From: Thauera sp. JM12B12
Lineage (GTDB): Bacteria > Pseudomonadota > Gammaproteobacteria > Burkholderiales > Rhodocyclaceae
Assembly (NCBI RefSeq): GCF_039614725.1
Contig: NZ_CP154859.1
Span: 1,116,001-1,180,000, forward strand
Direction of reading: 5' to 3'
Length of the DNA stretch: 64,000 nt
The position numbers were made by a program, and so were the translations under genes. This document shows, piece by piece, positions 46,919 to 58,659 of this stretch (its first letter is position 1; every line of letters starts with the position of its first letter). A model generated the notes under the pieces. It worked only from the letters and a program-made list of their open reading frames with translations. It was not told the origin of the DNA and did not search any database.

Positions 46919-47092
46919 GTGGGAGCGGGCTTGCCCGCGAATGTCGCAAGATCAGGCGCCGCTTTCGCGGCCAAGGCCGCTCCCACAGAGAGTTGCTCCC
47001 ACGGGCGCTGGGCCCGAGGTCCTCGTGGGAGCGGGCTTGCCCGCGAATGTCGCAGGATCAGGCGCCACTATCGCGGCCAAGGCCGCTCCCAC
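46919..47092. repeat. Two tandem REPIN doublets (68 bp each, period 106 bp)
   Basis: Each doublet (46919-46986 and 47025-47092) starts GTGGGAGCGGGCTTGCCCGC and ends with an inverted, slightly different REP (GCGGCCAAGGCCGCTCCCAC). The spacer between doublets is 38 bases. The same 68 + 38 layout is found at 53179-53352. Together with the neighbouring stretch 46,725-46,918, in which I see no gene, this fills the region upstream of the PEP-CTERM gene. Confidence 0.88.
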
Positions 47093-51252: not shown

Positions 51253-51272
51253 ATCAATCCAGACGGACCCCG
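51253..51272 (-). repeat. 25-bp dispersed repeat, degenerate copy 5
   Basis: ATCAATCCAGACGGACCCCG matches the repeat at 16 of 20 positions. It contains the stop codon of amidotransferase 3 (GAT TGA on the minus strand). The match is weaker than for other copies, and chance cannot be excluded. Confidence 0.45.
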
Positions 51273-53062
51273 TCGAAGTGCTCGCGCAGCCAGAACTCCA
51301 TCATCATCAGGATCCACACCATCTCGCCGTAGTAGCCAGGGTGCTCGGGTAGATGCACCGAGAGCAACTCGTCGATGAAGCTCGGGCGGACGATGCCGCG
51401 CTGGCGGAAGCTGCCGAGCGCGTCGGCGGCGAGCGCCTTGAGGCCGGCGTGCTGGCAGGCCCATACGCCGAAGGGCAGGCCGAAGCCGTGCTTCTTCTTG
51501 GCGATGATCTCGTCGGGCAGGAAGCCGCGCAGCGCCTCCTTGAAGAACCAGCGCAGGGTCAGGCGCTTGAGCTTCCAGTCGGGCGGCAGCGTGGTGGAGA
51601 AGTCGGTGAGCTCGTCCGACAGCAGCGGAAAGGCCACGTCCACCCCGGCGAGCTGGGTGGTACCGATGACCTTGGGCAGGTCGTTGTCGGCGAGGGTGTA
51701 TTTCCAGTCGTAATTGAGCATCAGGTTGATGTGCGAGCGCGCGTTGGTCGCCTTCCACACTTCGCGCTGCTCGGCGTTCGGACGGCCGGTGTCGACGCGG
51801 GCGAGGAAGTCGGGTTCGAACACCGTGTCCAGCCCCAGGCGTACCAGCATGTTGTACATGTGGATGCGATCGGGCATGGGCACGCGCGCCTGTTCGACAT
51901 AGCTCTGGCCCTTGCGGGTGACCGGGATGCGGTCCATGCCGGGCAGCGCCAGTGCGGGCTCGAGCAGGCCGCGGCGCAGCACGCCGGGAACGCCGTCGTA
52001 CCAGCCGAACACGCGCTGCTTGGCATAGCGGCTGTTGCCGCCGAAGAGTTCGTCGCCGCCGTCGCCGGCGAGGATGCGCGCGACGCCGTCCTCGCGTGCG
52101 CGGGTGGCGCAGATCCAGCCCGGCAGCGCCGAGGAGTTGCCGAAGGGCTGGTCGTAGTGGGTGGCGACCTTGGGGATGCCGTCGACGAGGTCGGCGGGGG
52201 TGACGTAGTACTCGCGATGGTCGGCGCCGAAGCGTCTGGCGGCGATGCGGGCGTATTCCATCTCGTCGTAGCCGCTGGCGTCGAAGCCGATGGAGTAGGC
52301 GCGTGCGGGCTGGCCGAGCACCTTGCACAGCATGCCGGTGACGGTGGAACTGTCGGTGCCGCCGGACAGGAAGCAACCCACGCTGCTGCCGTCGACCTCG
52401 CGCCGCACGCCGTCCTCGATGATCTGCAGGAAGCGCGCCTTGGCCTCATCGAAACTCGGGGCGGCGTGCTCGTCGAACTGCGGATTCCACCAGCGGCGCA
52501 GTTCGGTCTTGCCGTTGTGCCACTTGAGCAGGTGGCCGTGGGGCAGTCGGGCGATGCCGTCGAAGATGGTCGTCGGCGCCGGGATCATGTGGAAGAAGAG
52601 GTATTCGAAGACGGCCTGCGGGGCGACCTTGCGCGCGATGCCGGGAACGGTGTCGGCGCGATCCGAGAAGTGCAGGCGGCCGTCGCGTTCGGCGTAGCAG
52701 ATCGGCCAGGTGCCGAAGCGGTCGGTGGCGAGCAAGGCTTCGCGGCCGTCGTTGGCCAGCATCACCACGCAGAAGCGGCCGCCGGCCTGCTGCACGGCGT
52801 CGTCGCCAAAGCGTGCGAAGGCCTGTGCCCAGGCTGCTGCGGGGCCTTGTGCGGCGTTGATCTGCTGCAGGGCGTCGTCGTGAAAGCGCGGCCGGCCAAG
52901 GGCGATGCAGACCCGGCCGCCTTCCTGGAAGGACTTCACCTCGGGCTGGTAAGCCAGCGCGCCGGCAGGGAACTGCAGGCGGGCTATCTGGCCGGGAAGG
53001 GAAGTCGCCGCGTCGGGCGTGCCAAAAACTCCACAGAAGCGTTCGCGCACAAGTCTCTCCAT
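51254..53062 (-). CDS. Amidotransferase 3, asparagine synthase-like, without N-terminal Cys nucleophile
   Basis: A 602-residue asparagine synthase-type protein. The synthetase PP-loop is SGGTDSS (233-239), followed by DGGDELFGGNSRY and the C-terminal RHPxFIDE-like segments. The N-terminal glutaminase domain starts MERLVRERFCGVFG instead of MCGI, so the N-terminal Cys nucleophile is missing and glutamine hydrolysis is unlikely; it may use ammonia or only bind. GGAAGG supports ATG 53062 over ATG 53089. It lies in the accessory part of the locus between the beta-helix and Uma2 genes. Confidence 0.88.
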   Translation of the reverse strand: MERLVRERFCGVFGTPDAATSLPGQIARLQFPAGALAYQPEVKSFQEGGRVCIALGRPRFHDDALQQINAAQGPAAAWAQAFARFGDDAVQQAGGRFCVVMLANDGREALLATDRFGTWPICYAERDGRLHFSDRADTVPGIARKVAPQAVFEYLFFHMIPAPTTIFDGIARLPHGHLLKWHNGKTELRRWWNPQFDEHAAPSFDEAKARFLQIIEDGVRREVDGSSVGCFLSGGTDSSTVTGMLCKVLGQPARAYSIGFDASGYDEMEYARIAARRFGADHREYYVTPADLVDGIPKVATHYDQPFGNSSALPGWICATRAREDGVARILAGDGGDELFGGNSRYAKQRVFGWYDGVPGVLRRGLLEPALALPGMDRIPVTRKGQSYVEQARVPMPDRIHMYNMLVRLGLDTVFEPDFLARVDTGRPNAEQREVWKATNARSHINLMLNYDWKYTLADNDLPKVIGTTQLAGVDVAFPLLSDELTDFSTTLPPDWKLKRLTLRWFFKEALRGFLPDEIIAKKKHGFGLPFGVWACQHAGLKALAADALGSFRQRGIVRPSFIDELLSVHLPEHPGYYGEMVWILMMMEFWLREHFDGVRLD

Positions 53063-53178
53063 CAGCCGCCTTCCGGGGCCGTATTGCATTGAACCGCCGG
53101 GATGATGCCCCATGCCGCACAGATTGTCAGTGAACTGTGGCGCAGGTGCTTCGGATGGGGGCGCTGGCGCGGATGGCA

Positions 53179-53352
53179 GTGGGAGCGAGCTTGCCCGCGA
53201 ACGTCGCAAGATCGAGCGTCGCTTTCGCGGCCAAGGCCGCTCCCACGGGCGCTGAGCCCGAAGTCCTCGTGGGCGCAACTGTCTGTGGGAGCGGGCTTGC
53301 CCGCGAACGTCGCAAGATCCAGCGTCGCTTTCGCGGCCAAGGCCGCTCCCAC
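53179..53352. repeat. Two tandem REPIN doublets (68 bp each, period 106 bp), second locus
   Basis: Doublets at 53179-53246 and 53285-53352 have the same internal structure as at 46.9 kb: GTGGGAGCG, then GCTTGCCCGC, a short middle with GTCGCAAGAT, then CGCGGCCAAGGCCGCTCCCAC split across it. The 38-base spacer carries the same GGGCGCTG and GTCCTC pieces but arranged in the other order. They fill the gap between amidotransferase 3 and the beta-helix gene; no gene is seen between 53,063 and 53,378. Confidence 0.88.
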
Positions 53353-53378
53353 AGTGCCGCTTGTGTTGAGGGCGCCGC

Positions 53379-54557
53379 TCAATAGCCTGTCTGCACGGCG
53401 CCGGGTAGCCAGCTGGCGGGCGGGGTGATCGGTCGGGTGCCGATCGGCAGCGCGAACTCGGCCGCGGGCTGCAGCGACACGCCGCGTGCCGCGCCTGCGG
53501 GCGCGGTGAAATGACGCAGCACGCTGGCGCCGCGCGGGCGGAAGTCGAGCGTGTCCGGGTCCTGCAGCGCGCCGGGCGGGAGCGGGACATTGCCGCGGTA
53601 GTCGCCACCGTTGATCAATGTGAGGCTGCCCAGGCCGACGCTCAGATTATTGATGCCCACGATTTCCGCGTTCGCCGGCAGGCGGTCGGACCAGGTGCGC
53701 AGGAACAGGGTGCCGGTGTGGCGGTCGCTGAGCAGGGTGTTGTGGGCGAGGTAGAGCGCGCTTTCGGGCCAGGCATTGCCCTCGGCGCCGTAGGCGATGA
53801 CGGTGGGGTTCTGCGTATTCGCGCTCTGGCCGATGATGTTGCCGACCACGAAGGCGAGCCCGCCGTTGGGTAGGTCGAGTTCGTAGGATGCCTCGCCCTG
53901 GGGGCCGTCGTAGAGCAGGTTGTAGCGGATGTCGTTGTAGCGTGCGCGCGACTTGAGCAGATGGCCGCGGTAGCCCTGGTGGAAGCGGCTACCGCTGACC
54001 ACGAAGCGGGCGATGCGGCCGACGTAGAGCAGGTGAGGCAGCGACTGCGTCTGTTGGGGGGCCTGGGCAAACAGGCTGTCGCGGACGATCAGTTCGGCGT
54101 CATCGAAGTTGGCGGCGAGGATGCCGGTCTGGTTGTCGATGAACACGCTGTTGCGCACTTCCAGGCGGCCGCGCTCGAAGCGGATGCCGGCGCCGTTGTG
54201 GTCGGCTGCACGCGCGCCACGGAATTCGATGTTGTCGACAAGGAAGTCACCGTCGGCAACTACCCAGATAGCCTTGCCCTGGGCGATCTTGCCATCGGCG
54301 TTCAGCACCGGGCGTTCGCCGATGCCGCGGATCGTGAGCCGCTTCTGCCGCCAGGTCGCCACGTCACCACGGTATTCGCCGGGCAGGATCTCGACGATGT
54401 CGCCATCCCTGGCCGCCTTGGCGGCCTCGGCGATGCGGGTGAAGGCCTCGCCGGGGCCGACACGCAGGATGTCGGCGTGAGCCGGGAGAGCGAGGGCGGC
54501 GATGATAATGGCAAGGCGCCGTGCCGTCTTGCAGGCCTTGGTGAAGTGCCGAGGCAC
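53379..54557 (-). CDS. Secreted right-handed parallel beta-helix protein (polysaccharide lyase/epimerase fold)
   Basis: A 392-residue protein with a signal peptide (RRLAIIIAALALPAHA). Repeating strands of the type RVGPGEAFTRIAEAAKAARD, then DGDIVEILPGEYRG, FLVDNIEFRGARAAD and LEVRNSVFIDNQTGILAA form a typical beta-helix. This fold serves pectate lyases and alginate epimerases, so action on an acidic polysaccharide is likely. The start is unclear: GTG 54557 is best in frame, and the sequence just upstream is a REP element. Confidence 0.75.
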   Translation of the reverse strand: MPRHFTKACKTARRLAIIIAALALPAHADILRVGPGEAFTRIAEAAKAARDGDIVEILPGEYRGDVATWRQKRLTIRGIGERPVLNADGKIAQGKAIWVVADGDFLVDNIEFRGARAADHNGAGIRFERGRLEVRNSVFIDNQTGILAANFDDAELIVRDSLFAQAPQQTQSLPHLLYVGRIARFVVSGSRFHQGYRGHLLKSRARYNDIRYNLLYDGPQGEASYELDLPNGGLAFVVGNIIGQSANTQNPTVIAYGAEGNAWPESALYLAHNTLLSDRHTGTLFLRTWSDRLPANAEIVGINNLSVGLGSLTLINGGDYRGNVPLPPGALQDPDTLDFRPRGASVLRHFTAPAGAARGVSLQPAAEFALPIGTRPITPPASWLPGAVQTGY

Positions 54558-54561
54558 TGCA

Positions 54562-54626
54562 TTCGCGGGCAAGCCCGCTCCCACGACGGCCGGTGCTGCC
54601 CCTGTGGGAGAGGGCTTGCCCGCGAA
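54562..54626. repeat. Inverted pair of REP elements at the beta-helix gene start
   Basis: A reverse-type REP (54562-54584, TTCGCGGGCAAGCCCGCTCC) and a forward-type REP (54604-54626, GTGGGAGAGGGCTTGCCCGC) lie 20 bases apart. They separate the acyl-CoA ligase gene from the beta-helix gene and overlap the likely translation start region of the latter. Confidence 0.8.
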
Positions 54627-54633
54627 CATCGCC

Positions 54634-56220
54634 TCAGTCTCCCAACTCGCTCGCCAGCGTCTTGCGGTCGATCTTGCCGTTTGGGTTGCGCGGCAGCGGG
54701 CCTTCGCGCACCTCGATGCGACCGGGCACCATGTAGGCCGGCATTCGCGTGCGGCATTCGGCAAGCAGCGCCGCGGTGTCGAGCGTGCCGTCGGCGGGCG
54801 GGGTGGCGATGACGACGATGCTCTGGCCCAGGGTGTCGTGGGCAATGCCGAAGGCTGCACATTCGCCGACCAGCCTGGTGGCGTAGAGGATCTCCTCCAC
54901 CTCGGTGGGGCTTACGCGGTAGCCCGAGGTCTTGATCATCTCGTCGCGGCGGCCGATGAAATAGAGGTAACCCTCCTCGTCGCGGCGCACGGTGTCGCCG
55001 GAGAACACCGCGATCTCGGGCAGGACCAGGCCGCTCTGCCGACCCGGGGCCTTGGTGGGCAGAGGCTTGAAGCGTTCGGCAGTCTTTTCCGGGTCGTTCC
55101 AGTAGCCCATCGCGACCAGCGCACCGCGCTGCACGAGTTCGCCCGGCTCGTTGGGCGCGCATTCGCTGCCATCCTCGCGCAGCACCATGATCTCGGCGTT
55201 GGGGATGGCCTTGCCGATCGAGTCGGGGCGGATGTCGGCCTGCGCCGGCGGCAGGTAGGTGGCGCGGAAGGCCTCGGTGAGGCCATACATCAGGAAGGGC
55301 TCCGTCCTGGGCAGCATGCCGCGCAGCTTGGTGAGCGTCTCCAGCGGCATGCGTCCGCCGGTGTTGGCGATGTAACGCAGGTGCTCGGTGATGGTGTCCG
55401 ACCACTGCAGTTGCGAGAGCTGGATCCACAATGGCGGCACTGCGGTGAGGCCGGTGACCTTTTCCTTCTCGACGGCCTTGAGGACGTCGCGCGGCATCAG
55501 ATAGTTGAGCAGCACCACGCGCGCGCCTGAATGAAACGCGGTGGTGAGCTGCGAGAAGCCGGCGTCGAAGGATAGCGGCAGTGCGGCGAGCAGGGTGTCG
55601 CCGGCGTGGTTCTCGAGGTACTGCGCGACGCTCTTGCCGCCCGCAACCATGTTCCGATGAGAGAGCACCACGCCCTTGGGCCGGCCGGTGCTGCCGGACG
55701 TATACAAAATGGCGGCCATGTCCGTGTCGATGATGCGGTGGCCGGCGGCGGGCGGCGCGGCGCAGAGTTCCTCCCAACGCACGACGCTGGCGCCGGGCAT
55801 TTCCGGCCGCGTATCCACCTTGCCGGTGAGCACCACGTGGCGCAGGTCGTGGCAGCTGGCGAGCGTGTCGCGCAGGGTGGCGAAACGTTCGGGCGAGGTC
55901 ACCAGCACGCGTACGTTGCAGTCCTGCAGGATGTAGCCGACCTGCTCGGCCTTCAGGATCGGGTTGACCGGTACGAAGACGCCCCCCGCCGCGCTGGTGC
56001 CGAAGATGGCGGTGACGGTTTCGGGGCGCTTGTCGAGGTAGATCGCTACGCGCTCGCTGCGCTCGAGGCCGAGTGCCAGGAGGCCGGCCGCGAACTGGGC
56101 TACGGCAGCGCCGAGTTCGGCGTAGCTCTGCGTGGCCCCGCCGAAGGTGAGCGCCGGCGCGGTGGGCGAACGCTGGGCAGATGCGCTGATCAGGTGGTGG
56201 AGCAGGGTGGTGTGGTTCAT
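54634..56220 (-). CDS. Acyl-CoA ligase (AMP-forming), exosortase A system-associated (TIGR03098-like)
   Basis: A 528-residue adenylate-forming enzyme. The AMP-binding loop ILYTSGSTGRPKGVVLSHRN, the motif MYGLTEAFRATYLPP and the hinge region SGYRVSPTEVEEI are all present, as is GKIDRKTL near the C-terminus with the catalytic Lys. It probably activates a carboxylic acid for loading onto the acyl carrier protein at 37.9 kb. The product and role in exosortase loci are unknown. It is divergent from dnaX and is the first gene of the minus-strand block. Confidence 0.92.
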   Translation of the reverse strand: MNHTTLLHHLISASAQRSPTAPALTFGGATQSYAELGAAVAQFAAGLLALGLERSERVAIYLDKRPETVTAIFGTSAAGGVFVPVNPILKAEQVGYILQDCNVRVLVTSPERFATLRDTLASCHDLRHVVLTGKVDTRPEMPGASVVRWEELCAAPPAAGHRIIDTDMAAILYTSGSTGRPKGVVLSHRNMVAGGKSVAQYLENHAGDTLLAALPLSFDAGFSQLTTAFHSGARVVLLNYLMPRDVLKAVEKEKVTGLTAVPPLWIQLSQLQWSDTITEHLRYIANTGGRMPLETLTKLRGMLPRTEPFLMYGLTEAFRATYLPPAQADIRPDSIGKAIPNAEIMVLREDGSECAPNEPGELVQRGALVAMGYWNDPEKTAERFKPLPTKAPGRQSGLVLPEIAVFSGDTVRRDEEGYLYFIGRRDEMIKTSGYRVSPTEVEEILYATRLVGECAAFGIAHDTLGQSIVVIATPPADGTLDTAALLAECRTRMPAYMVPGRIEVREGPLPRNPNGKIDRKTLASELGD

Positions 56221-56379: not shown

Positions 56380-58659
56380 ATGAGCTATCAGGTCCTCGCA
56401 CGCAAGTGGCGGCCGAAATCCTTCGGCACGCTGGTCGGTCAGGAGCACGTCGTGCGTGCGCTGACGCACGCGCTCGCCACCGGGCGGCTGCATCACGCCT
56501 GGCTGTTCACCGGCACGCGCGGCGTGGGCAAGACCACGATCAGCCGCATCCTGGCCAAGGCGCTCAACTGCGAGACCGGCGTCACCGCCGAGCCTTGCGG
56601 GCAGTGCGATGCCTGTCGCGCGATCGACGCCGACCGCTTCCCCGACTACGTCGAGATGGACGCCGCCTCGAACCGCGGCGTGGACGACATGGCGGCGCTG
56701 CTCGACAAGGCGGTGTATGCGCCGGTGCAGGGGCGCTACAAGGTCTACATGATCGACGAAGTGCACATGCTCACCGGGCATGCGTTCAACGCGATGCTGA
56801 AGACGCTCGAGGAGCCGCCCGAGCACGTCAAGTTCATCCTCGCCACCACCGACCCGCAGAAGATCCCGGTGACGGTGCTGTCGCGCTGCCTGCAGTTCAA
56901 CCTCAAGCAGATGCCGCAGGGCCATATCGTCGAGCACCTGACGCGGATCCTGCAGGCCGAGGCGGTGCCCTTCGAGCCGGGCGCGCTGCGCCACCTCGCC
57001 AAGGCGGCGAGCGGGTCGATGCGCGACGCGCTGTCGCTGCTCGACCAGGCGATCGCGCACGGCGCGGGCAAGGTCGAGGAGGAGCAGGTCACCCACATGC
57101 TCGGTACGGTGGGCGACGACCACCTGTACGCGGTGCTCGATGCGCTCGCCGCGGGCGATGTCCCGGCGCTGCTCGCGGTGGCCGACGGGATGGAGGCGAG
57201 GAGCCTGTCCTTCGATGCGGCGCTGCAGGCGCTGGCGACGCTGCTGCACCGGATCGCACTCGCGCAGTACGCACCGGAGGCGATCGGTGACGAGGCGGAG
57301 CGCGCACGCATCCTGGCCTACGTGGATCGCTTCGACGCCGAGTTCCTGCAGCTCGCCTACCAGATCGCGATCCACGGCCGCGACGAGCTGGCGCTGGCGC
57401 CGGATGAATACACCGGCTTCACGATGACGCTGCTGCGCCTGCACGCCTTCCGTCCCGAGCAGCCGGCGGCGCTCGGCGGGCCCGGCGTGCAGCCCGGGCC
57501 GGCGGGGCGTGCGCGCGCAGTCGGGGGTGGGCAGGACGCGTTCGCGGGCAAGCCCGCTCCCACGGGGCGTGCTGCGCCGACGGGGCCGGCGTCTGCGACC
57601 GGGCAGGCGGCTCCGACCGGGCAGGCGGCTGCGACGGGGCCGGCGTCTGCGACCGGGCAGGCGTCTGCGACCGGGCAGGCGGCTGCGGAGGCGTCGGCAC
57701 CGCCGACCGTATCGGCGCCCCCGGCCGCATCGCCGCCGCCTGCTGCGGAAGCGAGCATACCCGCGACGCCGGCTCCCGGATCCGCCGCGGCTTCCGTGGG
57801 AGCGAGCTCGCCCGCGACTGCGCCGCCGCCGCGAGCGTCGGACCAATCGCCCACGGCCTCCGTGGGAGCGGGCTTGCCCGCGACTGCTGCGCCGCCGCGA
57901 CTTTCGGACCAATCGCCGCCTGCGGCCTCCGTGGGAGCGGGCTTGCCCGCGAATGCGGCGCCGGTCGCCGCGCCCCCCGAGCACGACGTGCCGCCCTGGG
58001 AAGACCTCCCCGCCGAGGCCTACGCCGAGGACGACGGCCGTCCCGCCCGCGCCGAGCGCGTGTCGATGGCGGACGAGGACCTCGCGCCGCGCCCGCGCGC
58101 AGTGCCTGCACCGCGCCCGTCCGCGCGGACGGATGCGCCGGCGGCCCGGCGCGCCAACGCACAGGGCGCCGCCGCTGCAGTACCGTCGGACGCCGCCGTC
58201 GCGGCAGCGTCCGCCCCCGCCACGCCCGCGCCCCCGCGGGCCAGCGGTCCGAGCGGTGACGCCGCCGCCTTGCTGGCACTCGGCGACTGGCGCGGGCTGA
58301 TCCGCGCGCTCGGCCTGGGCGGGCTGGTGCGCGAGCTGGCGCAGCACTGCGAATGGGTCGAGTGCGGCGAGGACGGCCTGCAGCTGCGGCTGTCGACCGC
58401 ACACCGTCACCTGCTCGACATGAACCGTGCCGCGGTCGATCGGCTCCAGGACCTGCTCACCGCAGCGCTCGGCCGGCCGCTGAAGCTGCGCATCGAGATC
58501 GGTGACATCGCCGGCGAGACGCCCGCCCAGCGCGACGAGCAGGAGCGGCGCGCGCGCCATGCCGAGGCGGTCGCCGCGCTCGAGGCCGATCCTTTCGTGC
58601 GCGAGCTGATCGAACGTTTCGACGCCACGCTCGTCGAGAGCACGGTGAAACCCCTATAG
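56380..58659 (+). CDS. dnaX: DNA polymerase III subunit gamma/tau with REP-derived linker
   Basis: A 759-residue clamp-loader subunit. Walker A is GTRGVGKTTISRI, the zinc-binding cysteines lie in CETGVTAEPCGQCDAC, and DEVHML and SRCLQF are the Walker B and sensor/Arg-finger regions. The C-terminal part resembles tau domain IV/V. Between about 385 and 560 is a Pro/Ala-rich linker containing four in-frame REP elements: FAGKPAPTG once and three SVGAGLPA-type copies. ATG 56380 is the family start. It forms an operon with ybaB and recR. Confidence 0.95.
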   Translation: MSYQVLARKWRPKSFGTLVGQEHVVRALTHALATGRLHHAWLFTGTRGVGKTTISRILAKALNCETGVTAEPCGQCDACRAIDADRFPDYVEMDAASNRGVDDMAALLDKAVYAPVQGRYKVYMIDEVHMLTGHAFNAMLKTLEEPPEHVKFILATTDPQKIPVTVLSRCLQFNLKQMPQGHIVEHLTRILQAEAVPFEPGALRHLAKAASGSMRDALSLLDQAIAHGAGKVEEEQVTHMLGTVGDDHLYAVLDALAAGDVPALLAVADGMEARSLSFDAALQALATLLHRIALAQYAPEAIGDEAERARILAYVDRFDAEFLQLAYQIAIHGRDELALAPDEYTGFTMTLLRLHAFRPEQPAALGGPGVQPGPAGRARAVGGGQDAFAGKPAPTGRAAPTGPASATGQAAPTGQAAATGPASATGQASATGQAAAEASAPPTVSAPPAASPPPAAEASIPATPAPGSAAASVGASSPATAPPPRASDQSPTASVGAGLPATAAPPRLSDQSPPAASVGAGLPANAAPVAAPPEHDVPPWEDLPAEAYAEDDGRPARAERVSMADEDLAPRPRAVPAPRPSARTDAPAARRANAQGAAAAVPSDAAVAAASAPATPAPPRASGPSGDAAALLALGDWRGLIRALGLGGLVRELAQHCEWVECGEDGLQLRLSTAHRHLLDMNRAAVDRLQDLLTAALGRPLKLRIEIGDIAGETPAQRDEQERRARHAEAVAALEADPFVRELIERFDATLVESTVKPL
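57541..57953 (+). repeat. In-frame REP elements and tandem repeats within dnaX
   Basis: A reverse-type REP at 57541-57563 runs into seven 18-base units (57556-57681; GCGTCTGCGACCGGGCAG type) that encode A-P/A-T-G-Q/P-A hexapeptides. Forward-type REPs lie at 57796-57818, 57862-57884 and 57931-57953; these are the heads of a 66/69-base tandem unit encoding SVGAGLPATAAPPRLSDQSP-like repeats. All keep the reading frame. Confidence 0.9.

Follow-up and report, generated by a model that had tools for sequence, protein, structure and literature searches.

REP copies and tandem repeats within the tau linker of dnaX in Thauera

The window analysed here is a stretch of 64,000 nucleotides corresponding to positions 1,116,001-1,180,000 of a single-contig Thauera genome of 4,171,389 bases (G000). 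It carries dnaX (Table 1), whose product scores 422.7 bits against TIGR02397 (cut-off 250) and contains the Pfam domains DNA_pol3_delta2, DNAX_ATPase_lid, DNA_pol3_gamma3 and DNA_pol3_tau_5; the named dnaX records nearest to it are from Thauera. The gene codes for a full tau, with ATPase, lid and domain III reaching to about residue 357 and the alpha-binding domain V starting at residue 636. In the intervening linker pLDDT falls below 50 at residues 362-512, 514-544 and 549-623, and the low-confidence stretch thus extends to residue 623. Around residues 388-525, which are 32 % Ala and 20 % Pro, values are mostly 30-40. The structure model was based on a shallow alignment of 24 and its N-terminal ATPase is also largely poorly modelled, so only the contrast between linker and domain V was used; by that contrast the REP-bearing linker is predicted to be unstructured.

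Table 1. Features of the dnaX locus and of selected REP-associated arrays in G000. Plain numbers are window positions; positions with an L prefix refer to small loci fetched from the same genome.
Feature	Position	Strand	Basis or remark
REP pair, reverse then forward, starts 41 bp apart (54563/54604)	54563..54625		just past 3' end of ORF 54634-56220 (-)
dnaX ORF, DNA polymerase III gamma/tau, 759 aa	56380..58659	+	Pfam, TIGR02397
Ala/Pro/Gly-rich linker, aa 362-544, predicted unstructured	57463..58011	+	pLDDT
Reverse REP copy, 0 mismatches; F-A-G-K-P-A-P-T with edges	57542..57563	-	core match
Seven 18-bp units, A-P/A-T-G-x-A; first 12 bases of unit 1 = GTGG edge of reverse REP	57556..57681	+	sequence, TRF
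Decayed forward REP copy, 5 mismatches; A-E-A-S-I-P-A-T; dnaX base 1366	57745..57766	+	core match
66/69-base tandem unit bearing forward REP copies	57780..57980	+	repeat family D2, TRF
Forward REP copy, 2 mismatches; V-G-A-S-S-P-A	57796..57817	+	core match
Forward REP copy, 0 mismatches; V-G-A-G-L-P-A	57862..57883	+	core match
Forward REP copy, 0 mismatches; V-G-A-G-L-P-A-N	57931..57952	+	core match
Array with GTGGGAG REP edge, 11 bp x 10	L010:1554-1663		TRF
Array with GTGGGAG REP edge, 20 x 5	L194:313-412		TRF
Array with GTGGGAG REP edge, 15 x 4.3	L214:413-475		TRF
Array with GTGGGAG REP edge, 15 x 4.5	L227:413-479		TRF
Array with GTGGGAG REP edge	L228:355-410		TRF

A search with the 22-base REP core GTGGGAGCGGGCTTGCCCGCGA at up to 3 mismatches confirmed one reverse and three forward copies in the tau linker, as proposed by an earlier, sequence-only reading of this DNA; that reading had missed a fifth copy, forward and decayed. 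It had also placed the forward copies at the head of a 66/69-base tandem unit, in agreement with their spacings of 66 and 69 and with a TRF period of 66 x 2.7 copies at 57782-57963; the two later copies of the unit are 83 % and 68 % identical to the first. Intact copies read GTGG, GA, GCGGGC, TT and GCCCGC in succession, that is, a tetranucleotide followed by a GC-rich imperfect palindrome, and REPs of the GTAG/GTGG type are defined by just such a GT(A/G)G tetranucleotide and palindrome (PMC2817692). Their position inside dnaX is at odds with the extragenic location by which these elements are otherwise recognised. The statement that REPs are normally intergenic holds for most of them, but intragenic REPs, including those of Thauera genes, are already in print in PMC3733652, which lists such units and makes extragenic position no requirement. 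The dnaX repeats are REP DNA; the intact copies equal the genomic core, third codon positions included. All copies are in frame, as had been noted, but this says little alone since the core, read from its sequence, is stop-free in all six frames; its weight comes from the relatives described below.

The window holds 16 REP core matches at up to 3 mismatches (mean 0 and largest 0 in 100 shuffles), and the whole genome holds 256 (128 + 128) against 0 for a reversed-pattern control, which is the high copy number looked for in GTAG/GTGG REPs. The pair at 54563-54625 has the same geometry as the minimal dnaX pair of genome G013. Two further stretches of the window, 53179-53352 and 46919-47092, are four-REP clusters, each with two 46-bp pairs repeated at 106-bp spacing. 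REP doublets are the mobile unit in REPINs (PMC3116915) and are common in G000 too; among the matches listed, however, 14 of 17 exact-match pairs within 50 bp have GTGG outward, whereas the dnaX pair and the 54563-54625 pair have it inward. The two inverted REPs of dnaX stand at the short distance of 41 bp in G013, and the window halves are 203 bp apart.

G000 also encodes a RAYT (locus L112; G000:C1:1106173-1106496; NF047646, 141 bits, cut-off 80), with REP cores at 1195 (-), 1256 (+) and 1374 (+) on one side and at 2076 (+) and 2121 (-) on the other. The copies at 1374 and 2121 flank the gene in inverted orientation, yet the one at 2076 (+) is nearer. A second Y1 transposase candidate (L111) scores 79.2, just below the family cut-off, and its locus contains no core. 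A Thauera RAYT has likewise been described in PMC2817692 (2010), where the transposase and its Pseudomonas-like REPs look derived from Pseudomonas and are considered to have been horizontally acquired; unlike the dnaX case, REPs inside genes are not treated in the available text of that paper ("intragenic" has 0 occurrences). In G015 and G016 most of the matches listed are a variant REP, GTAGGAGCGGGCTTGACCGCGA, and by these sequences the REP type differs among Thauera lineages.

Relatives were sought among 84,980 species, each represented by a single genome; 129 were found and 80 dnaX loci were kept, of which six run off the contig before the stop and L069 ends prematurely. Two of the 80 loci, L031 and L034, both from Thauera, contain REP cores (up to 4 mismatches). 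The sequence-only reading had named the same peptides written with unrelated codons in distant dnaX genes as the finding that would speak against REP DNA, and a search for them among the 80 loci found none. A separate genus set comprised 29 genomes, in 28 of which dnaX was read; contigs end in or before the linker in G027, G001, G022 and G006, leaving 24 genes readable through it. In the remaining genome, G009 (rated 100 % complete, 680 contigs), only a weak N-terminal dnaX match was seen (E 9.3e-4), and the missing gene is probably an assembly gap.

REP copies at up to 5 mismatches occur in 5 of the 24 readable Thauera dnaX genes, namely in G000, G026 (= L034), the one-contig genome G025, G019 (= L031) and G013. 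Among these carriers the reverse copy is always in one frame, and all forward copies are likewise in one frame. The reverse-to-forward spacing is 113 in G026, G025 and G019 and the next spacing is 57 in all three, followed by 72 in G026 and G025 and by 69 in G026; the window has 203, 51, 66 and 69, where 203 equals 113 + 5x18, and G013 retains only a compact 41-bp pair. Spacing changes among carriers are multiples of 3. Copy number in G019 is unsure, as an assembly gap follows its REP copies. At the place of the reverse copy, G012 has an apparent decayed version of its peptide and protein P0003 a near-intact one, the G027 contig breaks off a few bases into the expected site, and no copies or remnant were found in dnaX of G014 and G017. 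The proposed colonisation of the dnaX coding region by REP DNA is supported by the sequence itself, by relatives at varied stages of decay and by other intragenic REPs in G000. A further protein, P0001, from a close relative, is 94 % identical to the window DnaX over residues 352-400 and has 3 array units against the window's 7 and one forward copy fewer. This single comparison suggests that array and copy number may vary within the species; a few odd residues in P0001 point to sequencing errors, and assemblies can collapse repeats.

The copies found at the same place in dnaX are best read as descending from one insertion, an argument that draws on their common spacing and frame and not on the tree. 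A DNA tree of dnaX does not group the five carriers in a single clade; their distribution takes 4 changes, and 126 of 500 shuffles of the labels score as low. This tree treats three genomes with contigs ending in the linker (G027, G022 and G001) as non-carriers and omits G008 (dropped for its long branch) and G009. The protein tree, from which G009, G017, G020, G028, P0001 and P0006 were dropped, is weak, and a single-clade origin shown by tree was rejected. No target duplication was seen in dnaX.

We are fairly confident that a REP pair entered the tau linker once in a Thauera ancestor, was split, copied in tandem and left to drift, and that it persists as a tolerated passenger. The pair, reverse then forward with GTGG ends facing, would have entered in the ancestor of one Thauera species group. 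It would have been retained because its core is stop-free in all frames, the frames give mostly small, linker-like residues and the length change preserves the frame; the frame is observed, and its tolerance is presumed. Growth of the linker then split the pair, the forward half was copied in tandem together with its flank (57, 72 and 69 bp), and the copies drifted, no selection on the peptide being detected at low power.

The alternative of several independent REP insertions, or of repeated gene conversion from genomic REPs, in place of one insertion and drift is in our judgement improbable, though it deserves serious weight. The mismatch pattern runs against the clock of a single insertion, with 0-4 mismatches in the copies of G025 and G026 and none in any of the three copies of G019, and REP-richer genomes hold more perfect dnaX copies: 3 of 5 in G000 (241 cores at up to 2 mismatches) and 3 of 3 in G019 (99 cores, 77 % complete), compared with 0 of 4 in G025 (51 cores), 1 of 5 in G026 (28, 81 % complete) and 0 of 2 in G013 (23, 68 % complete). 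Five genomes are, however, too few for a correlation between REP number and perfection. The tree, which gives no single carrier clade, would also suit multiple insertions, but these could hardly reproduce spacings of 113 and 57 that are identical in three species, a spacing of 72 shared by two, and the same frames throughout.

Selection on the encoded peptide was assessed by counting changes from the REP consensus as a per-site non-synonymous to synonymous ratio. Among the 14 forward copies 13 changes are synonymous and 23 non-synonymous (ratio 0.80, p 0.59); for the 6 reverse copies, G012 included, the numbers are 5 and 12 (ratio 1.01, p 1.0). These site counts detected no constraint on the REP-coded peptide and no synonymous excess, at the low power afforded by 20 related and partly duplicated copies, and selection on the peptide was set aside. 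That the peptides are selected tau linker motifs whose likeness to REPs is secondary might be argued from their recurrence in several species and from the preserved Ala/Pro/Gly make-up of the linker. We find this hardly credible: several copies have 0 mismatches over 22 bases to the genomic REP, third positions included, three genomes on the same branch (G012, G014 and G017) lack the peptides or have only decayed ones, and 72 of 74 stop-reaching dnaX loci have no REP core (up to 4 mismatches).

It is also very unlikely that the REP pair acts at the RNA or DNA level in dnaX, for example through a hairpin leading to a short gamma-like product or a ribosome pause. The segment 57537-57957 does fold as RNA with z = -5.3 against 100 shuffles, and the reverse and last forward copies pair along 24 bp, but such pairing is a by-product of inverted copies, and the copies decay in relatives. 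The zero frame of the dnaX ORF has no -1 slippery heptamer of the form X XXY YYZ, and the first other-frame stops past the linker REPs are at 58257 and 58298, that is, 304 and 345 bases downstream of 57953; for want of the heptamer, a frameshift or gamma-product role was set aside except as a weak rival. The REP element in DnaX is most likely a tolerated passenger without function in the protein.

REPs in other genes of G000 were surveyed by scanning with Pfam ten REP-spanning ORFs picked from 68 REP sites, and domains were found on both sides of the REP in two of the ten. In L002:1501-1564 (G000:C1:82023-82086) a REP pair lies between two fused UvrA units, at residues 500-521 of an ORF that is open at both locus ends. 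In L014:1466-1550 (G000:C1:280250-280334) a single in-frame REP stands just after the APH domain of an APH/AAA_33 protein. The insertion measures 63 bp and duplicates 22 bp of its target exactly. A pattern search recognised the empty site in G026, G019 and G013, three of 14 loci fetched, and in alignments the two flanks adjoin each other directly in 22 of 28 other genomes. We take the L014 insertion, with its target duplication and empty sites, as direct evidence that REPs enter coding sequence in frame in this genome. Less sure in its start is L015:1480-1522, where a REP and a 15-bp x 2.2 array occupy the probable N-terminal tail of a TlpA/ResA-like thioredoxin. An asparagine-synthase ORF of the window (51254-53608), L006, L010 and L027 were not counted as intragenic, as the REP precedes the domain and is probably upstream, and L009, L028 and the window ORF 53379-54860 gave no Pfam match.

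In-frame intragenic REPs are already known, and dnaX is a well-traced further case in a striking gene. Intragenic GTAG REPs were described in 2013, Thauera sp. MZ1T included, many of them in replication and repair genes (PMC3733652); they resemble the dnaX copies in belonging to the REP superfamily and in being inserted in frame in real genes. The same paper reports REP clusters that code for 43 to 82 amino acids in Thauera and R. conorii and clusters reiterated in tandem with flanking DNA, and considers that insertions in flexible linkers may be neutral. Its main text contains none of the terms "dnaX", "tau" and "DNA polymerase III", while its figures and ORF list (Additional file 3) may include dnaX. 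As far as that text goes, it differs from the present case in giving neither a species-by-species trace of one insertion nor short arrays at the GTAG end. Rickettsia palindromic elements (PMC10969869) are alike in being palindromic and inserted in frame in protein genes, and are set apart by their description as ten families of about 150 bp, compared with the 22-base GTGG core in dnaX. A literature search that left most subscription papers outside its scope found no paper describing REPs within dnaX or arrays beside GTAG/GTGG ends, and the tandem arrays at the GTGG end may be a new feature. The dnaX case allows one mobile-element insertion in an essential gene to be followed across species as a compact pair, a split pair, tandem copies and a decayed remnant.

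The seven 18-base units had been described as continuous with the end of the reverse REP, and they are, if the REP-edge unit is included among the seven. Unit 1 consists of GCTCCCACGGGG followed by CGTGCT and holds the GTGG edge of the reverse REP; at 57578-57687 TRF reports a period of 18 with 6.1 copies and one of 54 with 2.0 copies (96 % matches). Seeding by chance was considered and rejected. When compared with the six inner units, the 12 REP-edge bases of unit 1 match on average at 9.0 positions; 5 of 2,784 in-frame linker 12-mers do at least as well, and two of these are the same REP edge in other species. For the full 18 bases, 20 of 2,784 linker 18-mers do as well, and the two best are the REP edge of G026 with 6 bases and an 18-mer directly after the reverse copy of G025. 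This flanking 18-mer of G025 agrees with window unit 5 at 16 of 18 bases. The further claim that the repeat grew from the REP end is favoured by position, in that unit 1 holds the edge and GTGG ends are hot spots in G000; against it, an array-like 18-mer is plain flank in the sister species G025 and repeats arise in REP-free linkers. We regard the idea of seeding by the REP end as half right: the array grew at the REP edge, but a unit-like stretch was already present there as flank.

Tandem repeats without REPs are seen in the dnaX linkers of G004 (L128, a Ser-Gly run) and G008 (L137, a Gly-Asp-Ala run), and that of G012 (L119) has STPTAA repeats with at most an apparent decayed REP remnant. 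Judged from these sequences, the Thauera tau linker grows repeats easily.

Arrays at REP ends across G000 were examined for 181 of the 256 REPs, taken from the window and 77 small loci, with a TRF score of at least 50 and a period of 8-60; arrays of other periods were left out, as were REPs lying closer than about 120-140 bases to the end of a locus. Arrays touch 21 of 132 free GTGG-end sides and 0 of 31 free opposite sides (Fisher p 0.015, a comparison resting on 31 opposite sides only), and are present at 8 of 1,477 control sites (p 8e-18 against the GTGG ends). The reverse copy of dnaX is one of these 21. At a TRF score of 40 the counts are 22 of 132 GTGG ends, 0 of 31 opposite ends and 9 of 1,424 controls, and a cruder test with exact 12-base direct repeats gave 4 of 34 REP clusters and 3 of 431 controls (p 0.0007). 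Most units of GTGG-end arrays contain the REP edge (examples in Table 1). G000 has a hot spot of short tandem duplications at the GTGG edge of its REPs.

This is mainly a habit of G000. In four other Thauera genomes arrays touch 2 of 62 free sides at GTGG/GTAG ends and 1 of 46 at opposite ends, and general array growth at this end was accordingly discarded for them (G000 against the rest, p 0.009). By genome the GTGG/GTAG-end counts are 2/10 in G012, 0/14 in G013, 0/18 in G009 and 0/20 in G016, with opposite-end counts of 1/10, 0/6, 0/15 and 0/15. A few more arrays in these genomes are on sides where another REP is present, some of them at the opposite end; such sides in G000 carry, among others, arrays of 16 x 3.8 (L022) and 18 x 3 (L205).

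How the window's 18-bp array arose at the GTGG edge of the reverse copy, where it is now located, has two candidate answers, slippage provoked by a hairpin and cutting by the RAYT transposase. A nick-and-prime origin of arrays is conceivable in view of work on TnpA-REP proteins, which use the GTAG motif and cleave next to the stem at CT or CA (PMC8266576). More speculatively, and in our estimate with the chances against it, the GTGG end could actively make short tandem repeats (mostly 10-21 bp, most with the REP edge), possibly by repeated RAYT nicking and priming, and in a disordered linker this would act as a ratchet that writes new in-frame repeat peptides, turning a domesticated transposase system into a generator of linker length in an essential gene. 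The link between GTGG ends and arrays turns the printed remark on reiteration in tandem into a testable claim on where and how REP clusters grow. It also hints at how repeat peptides come to be added to bacterial linkers. Unit lengths that break the reading frame would not be expected to survive in dnaX. Array periods in G000 span 10 to 54 and take any length, and those placed inside genes are multiples of 3 (18, 54 and 66/69 in dnaX, 15 in L015).
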